A stretch of 12,561 nucleotides of DNA from an uncultured Pseudomonadota bacterium. GTDB lineage: Bacteria; Myxococcota_A; Polyangia; HGW-17. The notes below the pieces were generated by a model. The model did no database searches and had not been told where the DNA came from. It worked only from the letters and a program-made list of their open reading frames with translations. The position numbers and the translations under genes are program-made. The DNA lies in the NCBI GenBank assembly GCA_938004375.1, contig CALKWH010000471.1, forward strand, positions 1-12,561, in the 5' to 3' direction. Position 1 is the stretch's first letter; each line of letters begins with the position of its first letter. Positions 1,156 through 12,561 of this stretch are shown here, piece after piece.

Positions 1156-1162
1156 CCTTGCG

Positions 1163-1315
1163 CATGACGAGGTCGATCTTCGTGTAGGGGTTCATGAAGA
1201 GGTGGTCGACCAGCTCCGCACGGTAGAAGCGATGGGCGTCCCAGATCCGCTGTCGGTAGTCGCTGATGGCTGCGGAGATCGCGGTGACGGCCTGGAGGGT
1301 CTCAGCGGCGGTGGA
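1163..1315 (-). pseudogene. Fragment of a Fic protein C-terminal region
   Basis: The 51 codons contain AAETLQAV, YRAELVDHLF and NPYTKIDLVM. This matches the helix that follows the Fic fold and the start of the C-terminal winged-helix domain seen in many class II Fic proteins (family pattern TAEETL...Y...L...LF..PYTri..v). The catalytic HxFx(D/E)GNGR core is absent and the winged helix is cut after its first helix. It is preceded in the same frame by a LuxR-like piece and followed, one frame off, by a Fic N-terminal piece. Neither join is natural, so I call it a remnant or chimeric piece. Confidence 0.6.
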
Positions 1316-1384
1316 CAACTCCGTGAGCCGCGCCTCGTGGGGCTTCACGTGCCCGGGGTCCCGGCGCGAGAAAGACGGCTGATT
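1316..1384 (-). pseudogene. 23-codon fragment of a third LuxR paralogue
   Basis: This reads NQPSFSRRDPGHVKPHEARL plus TEL. It aligns without gaps to residues 151-173 of LuxR regulator 2 (DQASFSRRELERVQPHEARL plus LEL): 15 of 23 residues and 53 of 69 bases agree by my hand count. Similarity stops abruptly on both sides. It runs in frame into the Fic C-terminal piece. The bases from 1385 to 1415 show nothing I recognise and lead to the stop of Fic protein 1. Confidence 0.55.
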
Positions 1385-1415
1385 CCTCGCGCGATTGGGG
1401 CGGCCATCGCGGTCA

Positions 1416-2939
1416 TCACCTTTCCGCAGGCGACATCGTGGAGGCCACCGCGCGTTCCAGGGAGACCAGTTCGTCATCGGTGAGAAAGGCGAAGTGGGAG
1501 GCCCTCTTGGCGGCGGACAGGCGGCCCTGGTTCTGCAGGCAGAAGCGGATGAAGAGATCGAGCAGTCGGTCGGGCAGGTCCACGAGCTCCCGAATCCCGG
1601 CGCGGGCGGCCTCGTAGGAGGACAGAAACGAGAGCTCGGAGACCAGTTCGTGGTCAATGGTGCGTTCGACGAAGCCAAAGAGCGCTTCGGCCTGCGGGGT
1701 CATGTCGATGAAACGGTACCAGTCGGCGGCGTCAGCCAGGACCGTCATGCGGCCGAGCTCGTCGAGCCGGTATTCGATTAGGCGCATCAGGGGGCGGGAG
1801 AACGCCTCCAGGGAGGCGTCGTACTCGGTCGGCTCGCGCAAGAGGACGGCGGACACAGGAAACATGAGGTCCTGGGGGGTGAAGCCGCGCCGCGCGAGGA
1901 TGTTGTGGATCAGGAAGCGATGGATGCGGCCGTTGCCGTCCTCGAAAGGATGGAGAAAGACGAACCCCCAGGCGACGACCGCGGCGTGGATCACGGGGGA
2001 GATTTCGCTGTCCTGGAGGCGGCGGTGCGCGGCGATCCAGCCCGCCAGGAGGTCGGGAAGTTCCCCCGGGGCGGGCGGCACGTAGTGGATCCGCTCCCGG
2101 TTCCAGTTCACGGTTTCGCCAACATAGTTCTGGGTCCGGCGAACCTGCTCCTCGGCGAAGCGCGGGTCGACGATGCGGTTCTGCAATTCGATCAACCGGT
2201 CTTTTTCGCAGAAATCATCGCGGCAGGCCAGCTCCAGCAGCGCCACGAACCGTTCGACGCGGTTGGCCGACAACGTGAGGCGTTCGAGCTCGAAGGAAGA
2301 GCGGGTCTCCTTGGTGTAGAGGTAGGCGGTGGCGCGCTTCAACAGCTCCGCGGGGTAGGCAGCGGCCACGCGCCGACATCGGCCCGAGAGGTCGGCGGCC
2401 TCGTACGCCGCGAGCTTCGGGGTGCGCCTGACCAGCGGGCAGAAGCGCGCGGTTCCGGGCAGGTTGTCCTCCACCCTCTGGCGCCGGATTCGCAGGCCGG
2501 GCCGGCACGTGTAGTATTTCTCGGGGTCCAGCAGCGGGATGTAATTGCCTTGCTTCAGGTCCGGGATCGGCAGGGCGCGGCCGGTCAGCGCCTCGTACCA
2601 GTACCAGAGCCGCCGCGCATAGATGCCGGTCGGCTTGGCGCGCAGCCAGGCCAGTATTTCAGGTTCATCGACGTTCCGGAAGATCCGGGTGAGCAACGCC
2701 GGATTCGTGCCGTCATACTTGAGCGCGAATTCCAAGTGCTCCAACACGGCCTCGCCGGGCCAATAGGACGCCGGAAAAAACTCCTCGACCCGGTCCGGGT
2801 GGTTTACCACGCGGTGAGGACCCCGGAGCAACACGCGGGACTGGTGCCAGTTCGGGATGACCTCCAGGCCGAAGCGCGCAATCAAGGCGTCGTAGCCCGC
2901 AGGACGCCAGGAGGCTGGGGATTTGTCATCGGTTAACAA
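1416..2939 (-). CDS. Fic-domain protein 1 (507 aa, long form)
   Basis: Fic enzymes usually transfer AMP from ATP to a Ser, Thr or Tyr of a target protein. The catalytic loop is complete: HPFEDGNGRIHR at residues 330-341 fits HxFx(D/E)GNGRxxR. The substrate-clamping flap lies near IHYVPPAPGELPDLL (284-298). The candidate inhibitory helix is at 212-220 (TRSSFELER). It keeps the key Glu219 but has Arg220 where [S/T]xxxE[G/N] expects Gly or Asn. About 200 residues of N-terminal sequence precede the Fic fold, and a helical tail follows it, making it longer than the usual 330-400 aa. The TTG start at 2937-2939 is chosen because a perfect AGGAGG lies 7 nt upstream; no ATG fits. The last gene of the minus-strand cluster, it is driven from a 64-bp control block also found before Fic protein 2. 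Targets are unknown, and toxin, self-regulator or housekeeping modifier are all possible. Confidence 0.9.
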   Translation of the reverse strand: MLTDDKSPASWRPAGYDALIARFGLEVIPNWHQSRVLLRGPHRVVNHPDRVEEFFPASYWPGEAVLEHLEFALKYDGTNPALLTRIFRNVDEPEILAWLRAKPTGIYARRLWYWYEALTGRALPIPDLKQGNYIPLLDPEKYYTCRPGLRIRRQRVEDNLPGTARFCPLVRRTPKLAAYEAADLSGRCRRVAAAYPAELLKRATAYLYTKETRSSFELERLTLSANRVERFVALLELACRDDFCEKDRLIELQNRIVDPRFAEEQVRRTQNYVGETVNWNRERIHYVPPAPGELPDLLAGWIAAHRRLQDSEISPVIHAAVVAWGFVFLHPFEDGNGRIHRFLIHNILARRGFTPQDLMFPVSAVLLREPTEYDASLEAFSRPLMRLIEYRLDELGRMTVLADAADWYRFIDMTPQAEALFGFVERTIDHELVSELSFLSSYEAARAGIRELVDLPDRLLDLFIRFCLQNQGRLSAAKRASHFAFLTDDELVSLERAVASTMSPAER

Positions 2940-2946
2940 GGGGCCG

Positions 2947-2952
2947 CCTCCT
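2947..2952 (-). promoter_or_regulatory. Shine-Dalgarno site fixing a TTG start
   Basis: AGGAGG on the minus strand, 7 nt before TTG at 2937-2939. The full consensus match at ideal spacing is the main reason for accepting the rare start codon of Fic protein 1. Confidence 0.8.
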
Positions 2953-2974
2953 GTGAAAAGACGTATGAAACATG

Positions 2975-3003
2975 AGAATCAATTACATTCCGGCACTTGT
3001 CAA
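2975..3003 (-). promoter_or_regulatory. Possible second promoter of Fic protein 1
   Basis: On the minus strand a consensus TTGACA (3003-2998) is followed after 17 nt by GATTCT (2980-2975), which matches the -10 consensus at only three positions. It lies in an AT-rich leader between the upstream control block and the gene. If used, it would give an operator-independent transcript with a leader of about 30 nt. The evidence is the -35 box and spacing only. Confidence 0.3.
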
Positions 3004-3058
3004 TATTTTTCATTATTTCGAGATGTGCATGAGCGCCTTCACGGCGGATGTCGTCATT

Positions 3059-3122
3059 GTTAACGGTCGTGAACAAAGCAGGTTCGGCTATTAACGCAAG
3101 AACGTATTTGCGTTAATAGTTG
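3059..3122 (-). promoter_or_regulatory. Operator/promoter block, copy 1, upstream of Fic protein 1
   Basis: This is a 64-bp block with 55 identical positions to the block at 6500-6563 and no gaps. It contains a perfect inverted repeat, arms CTATTAACGCAA (3088-3099) and TTGCGTTAATAG (3108-3119), with an 8-nt spacer. Reading towards fic, the inner arm carries a -35 box TTGCGT (3099-3094), then 16 nt, then TGC-TTTGTT with the -10 hexamer at 3077-3072. The repeat therefore covers and extends upstream of the -35 box, the usual place for a repressor or class II activator. A second conserved dyad, GTTCAC-N4-GTTAAC, falls at the expected start of transcription. The block begins 19 nt after the LuxR regulator 1 stop, so the hairpin could also affect the upstream transcript, but no U-run follows it. 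The regulator is not known. Confidence 0.72.
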
Positions 3123-3141
3123 GCAAACGCCGGCCGTCAAC

Positions 3142-3291
3142 TCACTCCCGCAGCGCCCTCATCAACTCGACGCGGGTGGACACGCCGAACTGCGCGTAGA
3201 TGGCCTTGAGGTGCGAGCGCACGGTCTCCGGGCTCATGCCCAGGGCGCGGGCGGCCTCGGTGATGGTGGCGCCTTCGACGAGGGCGGTGGC
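3142..3291 (-). repeat. HTH-coding direct repeat, copy in LuxR regulator 1
   Basis: These 150 bases differ from 4217-4366 at only 8 positions by hand count (about 95% identity), and the first 140 at 6. The rest of the two genes is much more diverged. The repeat covers the last 50 codons, which make up most of the DNA-binding domain. Confidence 0.85.
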
Positions 3292-4137
3292 CACGGCGCG
3301 CTGGCGGTCGGAGAGACGGGCCAGCGCAGGCACGGGCTGGGCGGCGGCGGGGACCACCCGGGCATGGATGGATTCGCCGTCCCGGCCCACCAGCCGGGTG
3401 AGGGTGACCGCGTGGCGTCGCACGAAGAGCTCGCGGCGGGACTCGGAGGAGCGGGCGAAGTCGCGGGCGGCCGCGCGCAGATCCGCGCAGACGTGGTCCT
3501 CGCGGAACCACGCGGGGGCGTCGGCCGAGGCCTGCACCACGCGGCCCTCGTGGTCGAGCACGCCCACCGCGCCGCCTGGCGGGATCGAGAAGCGGTGGCG
3601 GGCCATGGAGCGGGCGAACAGGTCGAGAATCGGGCGCTCGTGGGCGCGCACGCGGGCCAGGTCCGCGCGGGTGAACCGCGGCTGGTCGGCGGTGCGGTAG
3701 ACGCCGGCCCAGCCGGCGAGATGGCCGTCGATGAGCACGTGGGTGCCGATGAAGTCCACGAGTCCCAGCGGCGCGAAGAAGCGGTGGTAGATGGCGAGCT
3801 CCCCGAAGGCCGCCGTGGGCGTGAGCACGAAGACGTCCTCGAAGCTGGGGTTCTCGAGGATGTTGTCGACCTCGCGGCCGTCCTCGCGCCGGCCCATGTC
3901 CAGGATGCACACGCCCTCGTTGGCCACCGAGGCGGCGACGAAGGCGGGAGGACCGAAGGCCTGCAGGTCCACGTAGTACGGTCTCCCCTCGTGCATGACC
4001 ACGCAGTACAGCAGGCCGCGGTCGGCGCGGGCCAGCGCCCCCACCAGTTCGAGCAGGGCCAGGCGCGCTGGCAGGGGGGCGTCCTCGAGGGTGGCGGCGA
4101 TTTCATCGAGGCGTTTTTGGACTTCTTTGGGATTCAT
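3142..4137 (-). CDS. LuxR-type transcriptional regulator 1 (331 aa)
   Basis: The C-terminus (about residues 274-331) is a LuxR/GerE-type helix-turn-helix containing LSDRQRAVATALVEG, AARALGMSPETVRSHLKAIY and FGVSTRVELM. The N-terminal part of about 180 residues is a sensor domain I do not recognise by name; a GAF-like fold is plausible. The segment around 186-265 (GAVGVLDHEGRVVQASADAP) looks PAS-like. There is no receiver domain with phospho-Asp and no obvious autoinducer-binding domain, so the signal is unknown and the protein is probably a cytoplasmic DNA binder. The ATG at 4135-4137 has GAGG 8 nt upstream. It lies 79 nt after the LuxR regulator 2 stop on the same strand, probably co-transcribed, and is followed directly by the Fic protein 1 control block. 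It aligns with regulator 2 over all 331 residues without gaps, so the pair is a tandem duplication. Confidence 0.9.
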   Translation of the reverse strand: MNPKEVQKRLDEIAATLEDAPLPARLALLELVGALARADRGLLYCVVMHEGRPYYVDLQAFGPPAFVAASVANEGVCILDMGRREDGREVDNILENPSFEDVFVLTPTAAFGELAIYHRFFAPLGLVDFIGTHVLIDGHLAGWAGVYRTADQPRFTRADLARVRAHERPILDLFARSMARHRFSIPPGGAVGVLDHEGRVVQASADAPAWFREDHVCADLRAAARDFARSSESRRELFVRRHAVTLTRLVGRDGESIHARVVPAAAQPVPALARLSDRQRAVATALVEGATITEAARALGMSPETVRSHLKAIYAQFGVSTRVELMRALRE

Positions 4138-4216
4138 GGGTGCGTCCTCATTCTGGCCGCGGTCCGTTCAAGGACCTGCGGTGGTCGTTTGGCGCTCAGG
4201 AACATGACGCGTCGGC

Positions 4217-4366
4217 TCACTCCCGCAGGGCCTTCATCAACTCGACGCGGGTGGACACGCCGAACTGCGCGTAGATGGCCTTGAGGTGCGAGCGGACGGT
4301 CTCCGGACTCATGCCCAGGGCGCGGGCGGCCTCGGCGATGGTGGCGCCCTCGACGAGGGCGAGGGC
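4217..4366 (-). repeat. HTH-coding direct repeat, copy in LuxR regulator 2
   Basis: Partner of 3142-3291. Synonymous positions are conserved as well as coding ones, so recent gene conversion or very recent exchange explains it better than protein-level selection alone. Confidence 0.85.
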
Positions 4367-5212
4367 GACGGCTCGCTGGCGTTTGGACAACTGCGTCAAC
4401 GCCGGCACCGGTTGCCCCGCCGTGGGCGTCAGGTGCACGTAGACGTTGGGACCGTCCGGGCCCACCAGGCGCGTCAGTCTCACCGCGAGGCGGCGCACGA
4501 ACAACTCCCGCGCGTGCTCGCCCGAGCTCACGAACGCCTTCGCCTGCGCGCGCAGCTCCGTGCAGATGCGCCCTTGCGCGAGCCATTCCGGTGCGTCGGC
4601 GCTGGTCTGCAAGACGGTCCCCTGGTCGTCGAGCACCGCCACGGCGCCGGTGGTGGCCAGCTGCCAGCGATCGCACGGACAAGTAGCGAGGAACAACTCC
4701 AGCAGCCGGGCCTCGTGGGGCTGCACCCGCTCCAGCTCCCGGCGCGAGAACGAGGCCTGGTCGAAGCTGCGGTAGACCCCCGCCCAGCCGGCGATTTTCC
4801 CGTCGATGAAAAAGTAGCTGCCGAGCAATGACCGGATTTGAAGCGGCCCGAAGAAGATCCGGTACCCGGAGAACTCGCGGAACCATTCCGACTCCCCGAT
4901 CGAGAAGCCCGGCTTCAGAAAGGGGTTGTCCAGCAGCACCTCGCCGAGGGTGCCGTCCTCTTTTCGGAAGAGCTCGTCCATGCAGGTTCCGTCGTGGCCC
5001 TTCACCGTGTCGACGTAGTCCTGCGGACCCATCCCCTGCATGTCCACGGAGTAGGGCCTCCCCTGGCGCATGACGATGTTGTAATAAAGTCCCCTGGGTG
5101 CGTCGACGAGCTCCCCCATCAACGTCAAAAGCGCCAGGCGCGCGTCGAACGGCCTGCGGTCGGTGTAGGCCGCGATCGCGTCGAGCCGGGCCTGGATTTC
5201 CTGTGTTTTCAT
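4217..5212 (-). CDS. LuxR-type transcriptional regulator 2 (331 aa)
   Basis: This has the same architecture as regulator 1: an unnamed sensor region (about 1-180), a PAS-like segment (about 186-265, GAVAVLDDQGTVLQTSADAP) and a LuxR/GerE HTH (about 274-331). The HTH is nearly residue-identical to that of regulator 1 and has the same recognition region (SPETVRSHLKAIY). The sensor halves share roughly half their residues, which suggests different signals but the same DNA sites. An in-frame ATG at 5281 would add 23 residues. I prefer the ATG at 5210-5212 because AAGGAG lies 8 nt upstream and because this start makes the two paralogues exactly equal in length. The 97 nt upstream are AT-rich and separate it from Fic protein 2. 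Residues 151-173 resemble the stray fragment at 1316-1384. Confidence 0.9.
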   Translation of the reverse strand: MKTQEIQARLDAIAAYTDRRPFDARLALLTLMGELVDAPRGLYYNIVMRQGRPYSVDMQGMGPQDYVDTVKGHDGTCMDELFRKEDGTLGEVLLDNPFLKPGFSIGESEWFREFSGYRIFFGPLQIRSLLGSYFFIDGKIAGWAGVYRSFDQASFSRRELERVQPHEARLLELFLATCPCDRWQLATTGAVAVLDDQGTVLQTSADAPEWLAQGRICTELRAQAKAFVSSGEHARELFVRRLAVRLTRLVGPDGPNVYVHLTPTAGQPVPALTQLSKRQRAVALALVEGATIAEAARALGMSPETVRSHLKAIYAQFGVSTRVELMKALRE

Positions 5213-5302
5213 GGGTCTTTCTCCTTCGGAACGGGGGATTACGCCCACTGCCCATCGAAAATTGACTATCATAAAGACCAACTAAAATCAATGTATTTTG
5301 AC

Positions 5303-5333
5303 AAAAAATTCACCCGTTCGGGGGATGGAACGG
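5303..5333 (-). terminator. Weak intrinsic terminator-like hairpin at the end of Fic protein 2
   Basis: On the minus strand CCGTTC (5333-5328) and GAACGG (5319-5314) pair around an 8-nt loop, and six T's follow at 5308-5303. The stem is only 6 bp, overlaps the last codons and stop of Fic protein 2, and lies five bases from the T-run. At best it gives partial termination before LuxR regulator 2. The rest of the 5213-5302 gap is AT-rich and probably holds the luxR2 promoter, but I could not settle on -35/-10 boxes. Confidence 0.35.
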
Positions 5334-6488
5334 CGGCTCGGTGCCCTCGGCGAGGATCGAGAGATAGCGGTCATAGACGAAGACCCGGTCGCGCTGGCGG
5401 CCCGTGATTTCGCGCAGGATGCCCAGGTGCACGAGCGCCTCCACCGCCCGGGAGGCGGTCGGGAAGGACACGCCGAGCCGGGGCGTCAGATTCTGGATGG
5501 ACACGAGGGGCGTGGCGCGCAACAGATCGAAGGTGCGGGCGAGGGTCGCGCCGCCGCGTCCTTTCGCGTTCAGGCGCACGGCGTCCTCGTGGAACAGGGC
5601 TTGAAGGCGTCGGGCGGTGGATACGGCCAGGGTCGCCGTCTCGACCACCCCGGTGTAGAAAAACTCGAGCCATTCGCCCCAGGCGCCCTCTCGCCGAACC
5701 GCGTCGAGCAGTTGGTAATACTGGGTGCGATGCTGCTTGAAATACAGGCTCAGATACAGAAGCGGCCGGGCCAGCACCCCTTCGTGATGGAGCATCAGCG
5801 AGATCAGCAGGCGTCCCACGCGGCCGTTGCCGTCCAGAAAAGGGTGGATGGTCTCGAACTGCACGTGGGCGAGGGCCGCCCGGGTCAAAGGCGAGGAGGA
5901 CGGCTCCTGCTCGTTGAGGAATTTCTCGAGGGCGGCCATGCACTCGGGCAGTCGATGCGGCGGGGGCGGCACGAAGTGCGCGTTCCCGGGGCGGGTGCCG
6001 CCGATCCAGTTCTGGGAACGTCGGAATTCCCCCGGCTGCTTGTCCGCGCCCCGGCCGTGGGAGAGCAGGCGATGGTGGACCTCGCACAGGAGCCGGTTGC
6101 ACAGGGGGAAGCCCTCCTGCAGCCTTCGGATGCCATGCTCGAGCGCGCCGACGTAGCCGGACACCTCCTCCACGTCGTCGAACGGAACGCCCGGAGCGCC
6201 GTCGAGCTCGTACAGCAGCAGGTCGGACAACGACGACTGGGTGCCTTCGATCTGACTGGAGAGCACGGCCTCACGCCGGATGTAACTGTAAAGAAACAGA
6301 TCCGGCTCGGGTAACAGTGCCCCGATGGCGTCGAGGCGTCCGCAGGCCAGCAGGGCCTGTTCATGCAGCCGCGCGAGCTTGGAGCTCGGATCCGGCGGCA
6401 GGTCCGGCGGGAGCGGGTTCGGGACGAACGCCCGCACCGCCTCTCCGGTGGTCGTGTCGATTTCATAGTTGCCGCTGAGGCCGTTCAT
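5310..6488 (-). CDS. Fic-domain protein 2 (392 aa) with C-terminal winged helix
   Basis: This is a typical class II Fic protein with parts in the standard order. A Fic_N region contains ACGRLDAIG (48-56). The intact inhibitory motif SSQIEGT is at 77-83, with Glu81 expected to block ATP gamma-phosphate binding. The flap region is HFVPPPPHRLPE (171-182), and the complete catalytic loop HPFLDGNGRVGR is at 215-226. The C-terminal winged helix-turn-helix is at about 315-375 (FDLLRATPLVSI, TPRLGVSFPTASRAVEALVHLGIL). The likely reaction is protein AMPylation, normally self-inhibited. The ATG at 6486-6488 has AGGGG 6 nt upstream, inside a perfect GGGGTTCCCC palindrome that may mask it. It is preceded by the 64-bp control block (6500-6563) and followed by LuxR regulator 2. 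The winged helix makes autoregulation through that block possible, but this is inference. Confidence 0.93.
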   Translation of the reverse strand: MNGLSGNYEIDTTTGEAVRAFVPNPLPPDLPPDPSSKLARLHEQALLACGRLDAIGALLPEPDLFLYSYIRREAVLSSQIEGTQSSLSDLLLYELDGAPGVPFDDVEEVSGYVGALEHGIRRLQEGFPLCNRLLCEVHHRLLSHGRGADKQPGEFRRSQNWIGGTRPGNAHFVPPPPHRLPECMAALEKFLNEQEPSSSPLTRAALAHVQFETIHPFLDGNGRVGRLLISLMLHHEGVLARPLLYLSLYFKQHRTQYYQLLDAVRREGAWGEWLEFFYTGVVETATLAVSTARRLQALFHEDAVRLNAKGRGGATLARTFDLLRATPLVSIQNLTPRLGVSFPTASRAVEALVHLGILREITGRQRDRVFVYDRYLSILAEGTEPPFHPPNG

Positions 6489-6498
6489 GGGGAACCCC
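6489..6498 (-). promoter_or_regulatory. Palindromic ribosome-binding site of Fic protein 2
   Basis: GGGGTTCCCC on the minus strand touches the ATG directly. The likely Shine-Dalgarno AGGGG lies in its left half, so a short perfect hairpin could hide it. The loop would be tight at two bases, which makes the effect uncertain. Confidence 0.3.
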
Positions 6499-6499
6499 T

Positions 6500-6563
6500 G
6501 TTAACGCTTGTGAACATAGCAGTTCTGGCTATTAACGCAAGAGTCTATTTGCGTTAATAGTTG
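6500..6563 (-). promoter_or_regulatory. Operator/promoter block, copy 2, upstream of Fic protein 2
   Basis: Second copy of the 64-bp block. The inverted-repeat arms at 6529-6540 and 6549-6560 are identical to those of copy 1, while six of the nine differences from copy 1 lie in the spacer and between the -35 and -10 boxes. Towards fic it gives TTGCGT (6540-6535), 16 nt, then an extended -10 TGC-TATGTT with the hexamer at 6518-6513. Transcription would start near 6506 within GTTCAC-N4-GTTAAC, leaving a leader of about 20 nt. Conservation of arms, spacing and dyad, against drift of other bases, supports protein binding rather than mere recent duplication. Confidence 0.78.
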
Positions 6564-7207: not shown

Positions 7208-7243
7208 GGGGGGCAGGGTGCCACGGGGGGGAGCCCCGGTCAA

Positions 7244-7292
7244 CCCCCCGTAGACTGCGGGGCTGCGAAGCAGCCCGGCAGTCTACGGGGGG
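7244..7292. repeat. Long perfect hairpin in divergent spacer
   Basis: Arms CCCCCCGTAGACTGC (7244-7258) and GCAGTCTACGGGGGG (7278-7292) pair perfectly over 15 bp. After one G-G mismatch, GGGCTGC and GCAGCCC pair over 7 more around a GAA loop, so 49 bases form one cruciform. No T-run follows on either side, so it is not a standard terminator. It lies between the divergent SET and export-protein genes. It could be a REP-like palindrome or a bidirectional transcription barrier. Confidence 0.75.
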
Positions 7293-7327
7293 CTAACATA
7301 TGTGGAAGATTCAAATTTATGCTAGAC

Positions 7328-12514: not shown

Positions 12515-12561
12515 AGCTCGGAAGCGCGTCGTGTAGGGAAAGAGTGTAGATCTCGGTGGTC
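12515..12561 (-). other. Illumina P5/read-1 adapter, reverse complement (not genomic)
   Basis: The 47 bases match the reverse complement of the Illumina universal adapter with two A-to-C differences (12517, 12525). With the left-end adapter this brackets the contig in the orientation expected for untrimmed read-through. Genomic sequence ends at 12514. Confidence 0.97.

Follow-up and report, generated by a model that had tools for sequence, protein, structure and literature searches.

A SoFic-like Fic protein as the probable reader of a four-half-site operator array repeated at a fic-luxR-luxR-fic locus

Which protein reads a DNA block that stands upstream of two unlike fic genes, and does this block couple their expression? 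The question is raised by the window, a stretch of 12,561 nucleotides from an uncultured bacterium. The locus comprises four genes on the minus strand: fic2 (5310-6488, 392 aa, a SoFic-like class II Fic enzyme with a C-terminal winged helix), luxR2 (4217-5212, ATG start, 331 aa), luxR1 (3142-4137, 331 aa, a GerE-type regulator of a rare family) and fic1 (1416-2939, 507 aa, TTG start with AGGAGG upstream). This gene set agrees with the initial annotation, and the paralogy assigned to the two LuxR proteins was borne out by 54% identity of the products. The order fic-luxR-luxR-fic also stood; its description as symmetric did not, as the two blocks repeat each other in the same orientation (direct repeats) and transcription runs block-fic2-luxR2-luxR1-block-fic1. 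Downstream of fic1, fragments of a third luxR (1307-1393, minus strand; 59% identity over 29 aa, E 1.4e-5) and of a third, SoFic-like fic (1157-1237, minus strand; Pfam E 1.6e-4, below Pfam's cut-off) were found. Where fic2 stops, ahead of luxR2, a terminator-like hairpin is present (5311-5333, minus strand), in a region where five terminator-like sites were found and 2.3 were expected by chance.

Block A, the putative fic2 operator array, covers 6499-6563, and block B, the second copy upstream of fic1, covers 3058-3122 (both minus strand). The shared block measures 65 bp with 56/65 identical positions, a small correction to the 64 bp and 55 positions given before, and identity drops to about 18-35% in the flanks. 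The perfect 12-8-12 inverted repeat was confirmed as the same palindrome in both blocks (6529-6560 in block A). Its arm, CTATTAACGCAA, is present in four exact copies in the window (0.20 expected; four were reached in 0/200 shuffles), with no others at up to two mismatches. The repeat unit exceeds the palindrome, and two more half-sites downstream of it complete the array TATTAA-N18-TTAATA-N11-TATTAA-N8-TTAATA. The half-sites lie at 6554-6559, 6530-6535, 6513-6518 and 6499-6504 in block A (4/24 mismatches to the family array) and at 3113-3118, 3089-3094, 3072-3077 (TTTGTT) and 3058-3063 in block B (5/24 mismatches). Block A is separated from the fic2 ATG by 10 bp, block B from the fic1 start codon by 118 bp. 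Judged from the sequence and the family logo, a putative fic2 promoter (6513-6540, minus strand; -35 TTGCGT at 6535-6540, -10 TATGTT at 6513-6518, 16-nt spacer) falls within the array. The -35 box claimed earlier is, like the -10 box, weak by consensus, and the promoter scan lists none.

An array with at most 7/24 mismatches was found before 46 of 77 Fic2 relatives from many phyla, compared to about 0.3 expected in shuffles, the consensus having been derived from those very relatives; 31 of the 77 had more than seven mismatches. The 77 are what remained of 80 after three with a missing 5' end or less than 100 bp upstream had been removed. A consensus-free count of perfect 6-bp inverted repeats at spacing 18 yielded 30/77 (3.2 in shuffles), with spacings of 11, 13 and 16 equally common (27-31/77). 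In a search of 30 genomes the exact outer palindrome turned up at 14 places, and at 12 of these a fic2 relative follows directly. None of 23 Fic1 relatives carried the array, and no LuxR relative was found at E 1e-3 in 226 fetched loci, some of which are short or genome repeats. Therefore, the array belongs to Fic2. The expectation that the block would precede orthologous fic genes thus held for most fic2 relatives tested and failed for fic1. An exact three-half-site pattern had no match in 264 genomes of one phylum (reversed control, 1), despite fic2 relatives in 61 of them; this pattern is too strict because the arms vary by lineage. At least 120 stretches of viral contigs matched it. We read these as chance matches because the 80 loci tested had a median GC of 0.38 and no relative of fic1, fic2, luxR1, luxR2, SET or the next protein (E 1e-6). 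The exact palindrome of the window had no match among viral contigs, and viral scans with Fic1 and LuxR2 revealed no relative.

By its motifs Fic2 is a predicted class II Fic AMP-transferase. The Fic motif HPFLDGNGR (residues 215-223) shows no variation in two alignments, of 41 and 34 sequences, and neither do E81 and G82 of the inhibitory motif SSQIEG (S77-SQI-E81-G82). The PADLOC SoFic profile PDLC03963 matched the protein over its full length (394 bits, residues 17-380). We call it SoFic-like, not an equivalog, because it scored 152.8 bits against NCBIfam NF046030, below the curated cut-off of 550. Its fold matched the SoFic structure 3zcn at TM 0.78-0.82, close to the top match 7cb8. A winged helix-turn-helix was predicted at residues 313-380 (pLDDT 81-93), so that Fic2 appears to combine a Fic domain with a C-terminal winged helix, as do CccR-like proteins.

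Arg347 (codon 5448-5450, minus strand) falls in the recognition helix predicted from the model (residues 342-354). This residue co-varies with base 7 of the half-site, the base after TATTAA. Base 7 was scored as C if at least one outer arm carried C. Overall, all 10 loci with Arg (window included) had C, as did a single one of the 86 with a non-Arg residue. Operators could be called at 75 of 95 loci; these 95 comprised the window, 18 plasmid loci and the 77 relatives, after exclusion of one that lacked a usable frame. Of the 75, 66 (window included) entered the column scan after nine had been dropped for position or arm quality. The first set gave Arg with C in 8/8 loci (window included) and non-Arg with C in 1/58 (Fisher 1.6e-9). 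When protein columns were scanned against operator positions 1-9, residue 347 and base 7 formed the top pair (z 15, next 11; 60 permutations), the Arg-C pattern having been noticed by eye ahead of the scan. For a hold-out the prediction was recorded beforehand. Six genome repeats and eight unusable loci were removed from 76, leaving 62 tested, and an operator was called in 30; Arg went with C in 2/2, these being the only Arg cases, and non-Arg with C in 0/28. The third half-site, unused in finding the rule, showed Arg with C in 8/9 and non-Arg with C in 3/78, with 9/96 loci left out for fewer than 3/6 matches, including one Arg case (L142). Exceptions to the rule are one Lys locus with C in one arm (L026) and one Arg locus with A in the third half-site (L017). 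Parsimony counted 5 changes for Arg, 6 for C and 6 for the joint state, and the proteins of an Arg, C-type locus (L036) and a Lys, A-type locus (L023) are 90% identical. A partial Mantel test of operator distance versus helix distance (r 0.11-0.12, p 0.03-0.04) was left out as evidence because an N-terminal control region scored above the helix (0.18, p 0.004).

We consider it likely, at a probability of roughly 0.8, that the block serves Fic2 as its operator, through which a Fic2 dimer represses its own gene and of which a second copy stands before fic1. The dimer would bind the inverted half-sites over its own -35 and -10 boxes, with Arg347 reading the base after TATTAA, here a C. Bound Fic2 would repress fic2 and keep a potentially toxic AMPylating enzyme scarce until a signal relieved the repression. 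Since the array belongs to Fic2 and residue 347 co-varies with an operator base, Fic2 very probably represses its own gene, as is known for the Fic-HTH protein CccR. Three regulators had been proposed for the block; the array distribution and the coupling of residue 347 favor the winged helix of Fic2, and no support was found for either LuxR protein. The accompanying statement that no described system has this layout does not hold for autorepression by a Fic-HTH protein via a widely spaced palindrome. According to the accessible text of the report on CccR of Yersinia pseudotuberculosis, the protein represses its own promoter via a wide-spacer inverted repeat near the -35 and -10 boxes and needs to dimerize (PMC9755527). 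Both proteins are class II Fic enzymes with a C-terminal HTH, and in fic2, too, an inverted repeat overlies the putative promoter of the own gene. They differ in the operator, which is AGATAATCAT-N26-ATGATAATCT for CccR and TATTAA-N18-TTAATA plus two further half-sites for Fic2; neither the CccR sequence nor its N26 spacer was found in the Fic2 array. CccR is moreover a secreted effector, and the accessible text describes no second fic target (PMC9755527).

The role of block B is less clear-cut. Fic1 matched the PADLOC family PDC-S24 (PDLC04966) over its full length (590 bits, residues 12-503). We take this label to denote a phage-defence candidate; its name was not found in the literature searched. 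The structure predicted for Fic1 is of limited quality (mean pLDDT 70.7), and a fold search with it gave no match at E ≤0.001, with Fic proteins ranking first. Because the second array copy has the same code, C at base 7 in all four half-sites, Fic2 most likely also occupies block B. Whether it would thereby control fic1 stands at about even odds. The co-regulation of both fic genes suggested initially is thus a possibility, against which stand the Fic1 relatives without the array, the 118 bp gap and a potential promoter of fic1's own: a TTGACA between block B and the fic1 start (2998-3003, minus strand) may be its -35 box, though the promoter scan lists none. In an exploratory search, a GTAATNATTTTC-like motif was present at up to two mismatches in 9/24 members of the Fic1 family (window included) versus 1.1 in shuffles; the window itself has three mismatches.

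Only somewhat less probable than even is a relic origin of block B. It would then be inert or in decay, left over as the operator of an earlier fic2-like gene, and fic1 would have come later with its own promoter. Block A would remain the operator of Fic2, and the earlier gene may survive in part as the SoFic-like fragment found downstream. The absence of the array from the 23 Fic1 relatives, the TTGACA and both fragments downstream of fic1 are consistent with this. So is the third, -10-like half-site of block B, which is weaker, having lost a conserved A, and an intact C-type array without obvious target at L023:14322, 6.4 kb from a Lys-type fic2 array. When only the 6-bp half-sites were counted, 1/24 positions differed between the blocks versus 8/41 elsewhere, which is not significant (p 0.14). 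Against a relic, 1/36 positions in arms plus half-sites differed versus 8/29 in the rest (p 0.008), which suggests selection at both blocks until recently, and all four half-sites of block B match Fic2's own code.

Joint control of the fic genes by LuxR1, LuxR2 or both, through binding to the block, is highly improbable, and we rejected it on distribution. Both genes sit between the blocks and encode GerE domains, and the pair may recur, as two relatives (P0004 and P0011) were both encoded on 2057-base contigs, possibly one contig. However, the array precedes fic2 relatives although the 226 loci fetched, some of them short or genome repeats, yielded no LuxR relative at E 1e-3, and no block arm lies in front of luxR1 or luxR2. 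The family is also rare: 13 proteins among 7999 candidates scored, two of them the window's own, and 0/282 genomes of one phylum with a match at E 1e-30 in a search run without a positive control. With Fic2 as the reader of its own operator, luxR1 and luxR2 would be bystanders. The least credible reading has the block as a REP-, MITE- or attC-like element (dispersed repeat or recombination site) that lies near fic by accident. It would fit a pair of nearly identical copies that end sharply after 65 bp and the isolated copies at L023:14322 and L121, but was rejected together with an RNA element or tRNA, as no Rfam family and no tRNA was found in the window, 12 of the 14 palindrome places in the 30 genomes precede fic2 relatives and the block sequence tracks residue 347 of the adjacent protein.

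Fic2 resembles SoFic (structures PDB 3eqx, 3zcn and 9tch) in its full-length profile match, its fold and the presence of a C-terminal domain, and differs from the solved protein in sequence (about 25% identity). In the accessible part of a 2025 paper, Sofic is an anti-phage protein whose toxicity reportedly requires contact of the C-terminal domain with the enzyme domain, and an antitoxin, AS1, is encoded downstream (PMC12249575). Activation on infection is called elusive there and leaky expression was suggested to be toxic; no description of an operator was found in the main text as far as accessible (PMC12249575). CbFic2 of Coxiella burnetii is, like Fic2, a class II Fic protein with a winged HTH, and its enzyme state is altered by DNA binding (PMC10628234). 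Its N-terminal domain (DUF4172) is unlike that of Fic2, it was assayed with random DNA, and no operator was found described in the accessible text (PMC10628234). An unlikely extension of the Fic2 operator is that Fic2, moored on DNA, acts as a safety catch on itself while repressing the unrelated Fic defence gene fic1 as well. The winged helix proposed to read the array corresponds to the C-terminal domain whose contact with the enzyme domain Sofic toxicity reportedly requires (PMC12249575). On DNA, Fic2 would accordingly be kept harmless. If true, release would free the enzyme and simultaneously de-repress fic2 and fic1, so that a two-enzyme AMPylation response would be governed by one operator code.

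A Fic2-type operator was not found described in the literature searched, with most subscription journals and all bioRxiv preprints outside reach. A four-half-site operator conserved across phyla and read by the C-terminal domain of the enzyme would explain low levels of Sofic-type proteins, and a self-read operator would offer a direct handle on their induction. Under the Arg347-C/Lys347-A rule the operator sequence would be predictable from the protein sequence, and natural variants would be suited for testing it. The second array makes cross-control of two defence-associated Fic enzymes testable at a single locus.

A 65-bp stretch at positions 3058-3122 (block B) recurs in the same orientation at 6499-6563 (block A) with 56 of 65 positions identical, and the palindrome CTATTAACGCAA-N8-TTGCGTTAATAG is present in both. 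The palindrome arm occurs in four exact copies, and no further match with two or fewer mismatches exists anywhere in the window; in 200 shuffles the mean was 0.20 and four copies were never reached. Immediately beyond the block ends, identity between the copies falls to 18-35%. The two repeated blocks of the initial annotation are real, and its gene set matches the genes found, all on the minus strand: fic2 (5310-6488), luxR2 (4217-5212), luxR1 (3142-4137) and fic1 (1416-2939). The layout, which had been called symmetric, is not: both blocks point the same way, and in the direction of transcription the order is block A, fic2, luxR2, luxR1, block B, fic1. Fragments of two further genes, a third luxR and a SoFic-like third fic, come after fic1. 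These fragments (1157-1393) share one frame downstream of fic1 and comprise 1307-1393 (luxR, 59% identity over 29 aa) and 1157-1237 (SoFic-like C-terminal domain).

Several other features of the window were recorded. Between the luxR 3' ends (3135-3351 and 4210-4426) DNA identity is 87%, against 54% for the LuxR proteins overall; gene conversion or constraint on the DNA-binding domain may account for this. The LuxR family (P0002-P0014) is rare, with 13 proteins, including the window's two, among 7999 candidates scored from 5.8 billion. A 28-nt inverted repeat with a 3-nt loop (89% complementary) lies at the start of the SET-domain gene (7239-7297). Within region 1-1300, GC content climbs from ∼0.43 near 900 to 0.67 near 1300, possibly an insertion boundary or an assembly join; by eye, the low-GC side carries an RCC1-like gene and decayed repeats. 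The contig ends (1-51 and about 12525-12561) are probably artefacts, because both resemble Illumina adapter sequence.

Relatives of Fic2, a class II Fic protein with a C-terminal winged helix, were found at 80 loci, with many phyla named in the titles; none of these loci gave a tblastn hit (E 1e-4) to LuxR1, LuxR2 or the SET protein. Many carry an inverted repeat ∼50-90 bp upstream of the start codon. Its usual form is TATTAA-N18-TTAATA-N11-TATTAA-N8-TTAATA, a predicted operator array of four half-sites in alternating orientation. At up to 7 mismatches in 24 the array was present in 46 of 77 usable relatives (shuffle expectation ∼0.3); the fic2 and fic1 blocks differ from its consensus at 4 and 5 positions, respectively. 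Since the consensus was derived from the very sequences scored, perfect 6-bp inverted repeats were also counted whatever their sequence. At spacing 18 these occurred in 30 of 77 loci, against 3.2 in shuffles (maximum 7, 30 shuffles). Spacings 11, 13 and 16 gave 27-31 of 77 too, as expected for arms longer than 6 bp and a third site pairing with the second. The N18 spacing is kept in at least seven of the 18 plasmid relatives (L087, L089-L092, L094, L095), with TATTTAA-type or mixed arms; none of the 10 tested matched the fixed consensus, read in the orientation of the gene, with seven or fewer mismatches.

Thirty whole genomes that carry a fic2 relative were searched. Exact TATTAA-N18-TTAATA occurred at 14 places across 13 of them (reversed control, 3), and 12 of these places lie immediately upstream of a fic2 relative, one being a second fic2 paralogue in genome G005. 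In the genomes searched the pattern behaves as a near-private operator and not as a dispersed repeat. Of the remaining two places, one is at L023:14322 (genome G009), where an intact array with C after TATTAA has no obvious target; it comes after two short genes, by eye an antitoxin-like one and one resembling a PIN toxin, and the A-type array of a Lys-type fic2 is 6.4 kb away. The other is an array-like site in genome G002 (L121, near 1500) that adjoins a gene resembling, by eye, a phage ATPase. A further array-like site, L067:9860, lies 0.7 kb past a fic2 relative.

The base after TATTAA (base 7) follows the protein. Arg in the helix SFPTASR347AVEAL goes with C there, as was first spotted by eye, before any scan. 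When protein columns were compared with operator positions 1-9 at 66 loci including the window, residue 347 and base 7 were the top pair (z 15, 60 permutations; runner-up 11). C was present in at least one outer arm in 8/8 Arg and 1/58 non-Arg loci, and Lys had A in both arms in 27/28. The prediction was then recorded before new loci were fetched from three phyla. Under the same calling rule 30 of 62 usable loci yielded an operator call, in which C occurred with Arg in 2/2 and with non-Arg in 0/28, and A in both arms with Lys in 9/11. The third half-site, unused until then, had C with Arg in 8/9 and with non-Arg in 3/78 (p 2.5e-8). On a tree from residues 1-300, with the helix left out, there were five changes of Arg and six each of C and of the joint state, a count that lowers phylogenetic dependence without removing it. 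Two proteins that share 90% identity, L036 and L023, have Arg with a C-type and Lys with an A-type operator, respectively. In the structure model, residue 347 falls in helix 342-354 of the predicted winged helix (block pLDDT 81-93). A broader Mantel test was non-specific and was excluded from the evidence.

Operator calling made no use of the third half-site, which in a logo built from 96 operators reads TATTMA, with ∼1 bit at four to five of its six positions. From logo and sequence, its block A counterpart TATGTT (6513-6518, minus strand) is a putative -10 box, 16 nt after a putative -35 box, TTGCGT (6535-6540, minus strand). Both boxes are consensus-weak and the promoter scan lists none. 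A repressor bound to the array would mask both. Separate transcription of fic2 and luxR2 is suggested by a terminator-like hairpin (5311-5333). Binding and repression are inferences, and so is any phage-defence role.

Block B looks foreign to fic1, because none of 23 Fic1 relatives has the array (best, 9 mismatches). It may equally be a recent relic or a working second target. Block B and the fic1 start codon are 118 bp apart, with TTGACA at 2998-3003 between them, and the third half-site of block B is weaker, TTTGTT. Against a dead relic, blocks A and B differ at 1/36 arm and half-site positions but at 8/29 elsewhere (p 0.008), although the contrast is not significant when restricted to the 6-bp half-sites (1/24 versus 8/41, p 0.14). 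All four block B half-sites read C at base 7, Fic2's code. Right after block B, a 14-codon ATG frame (3013-3057, minus strand) is a possible leader peptide or chance. Fic1 relatives (L081-L085, L096-L113) seem, in an exploratory comparison, to share another AT-rich upstream motif, GTAATNATTTTC-like and sometimes in direct repeats.

Fic1 matches PADLOC PDC-S24; Fic2 matches PADLOC SoFic over its full length but falls below the NCBI SoFic cut-off. For Sofic, toxicity of leaky expression was suggested and the C-terminal domain was given a role (PMC12249575); 'autoregul', 'hth' and 'upstream' have zero occurrences in the main text of that paper. CccR, likewise a class II Fic and one that ends in an HTH domain, has been shown to repress its own promoter via AGATAATCAT-N26-ATGATAATCT near -35 and -10 (PMC9755527), so the mechanism proposed for Fic2 is already known in kind. 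A conserved operator of the Fic2 family was not found in the literature searched. Apparently new are the family-wide operator, the rule linking residue to base, and a second operator copy at a different fic gene.
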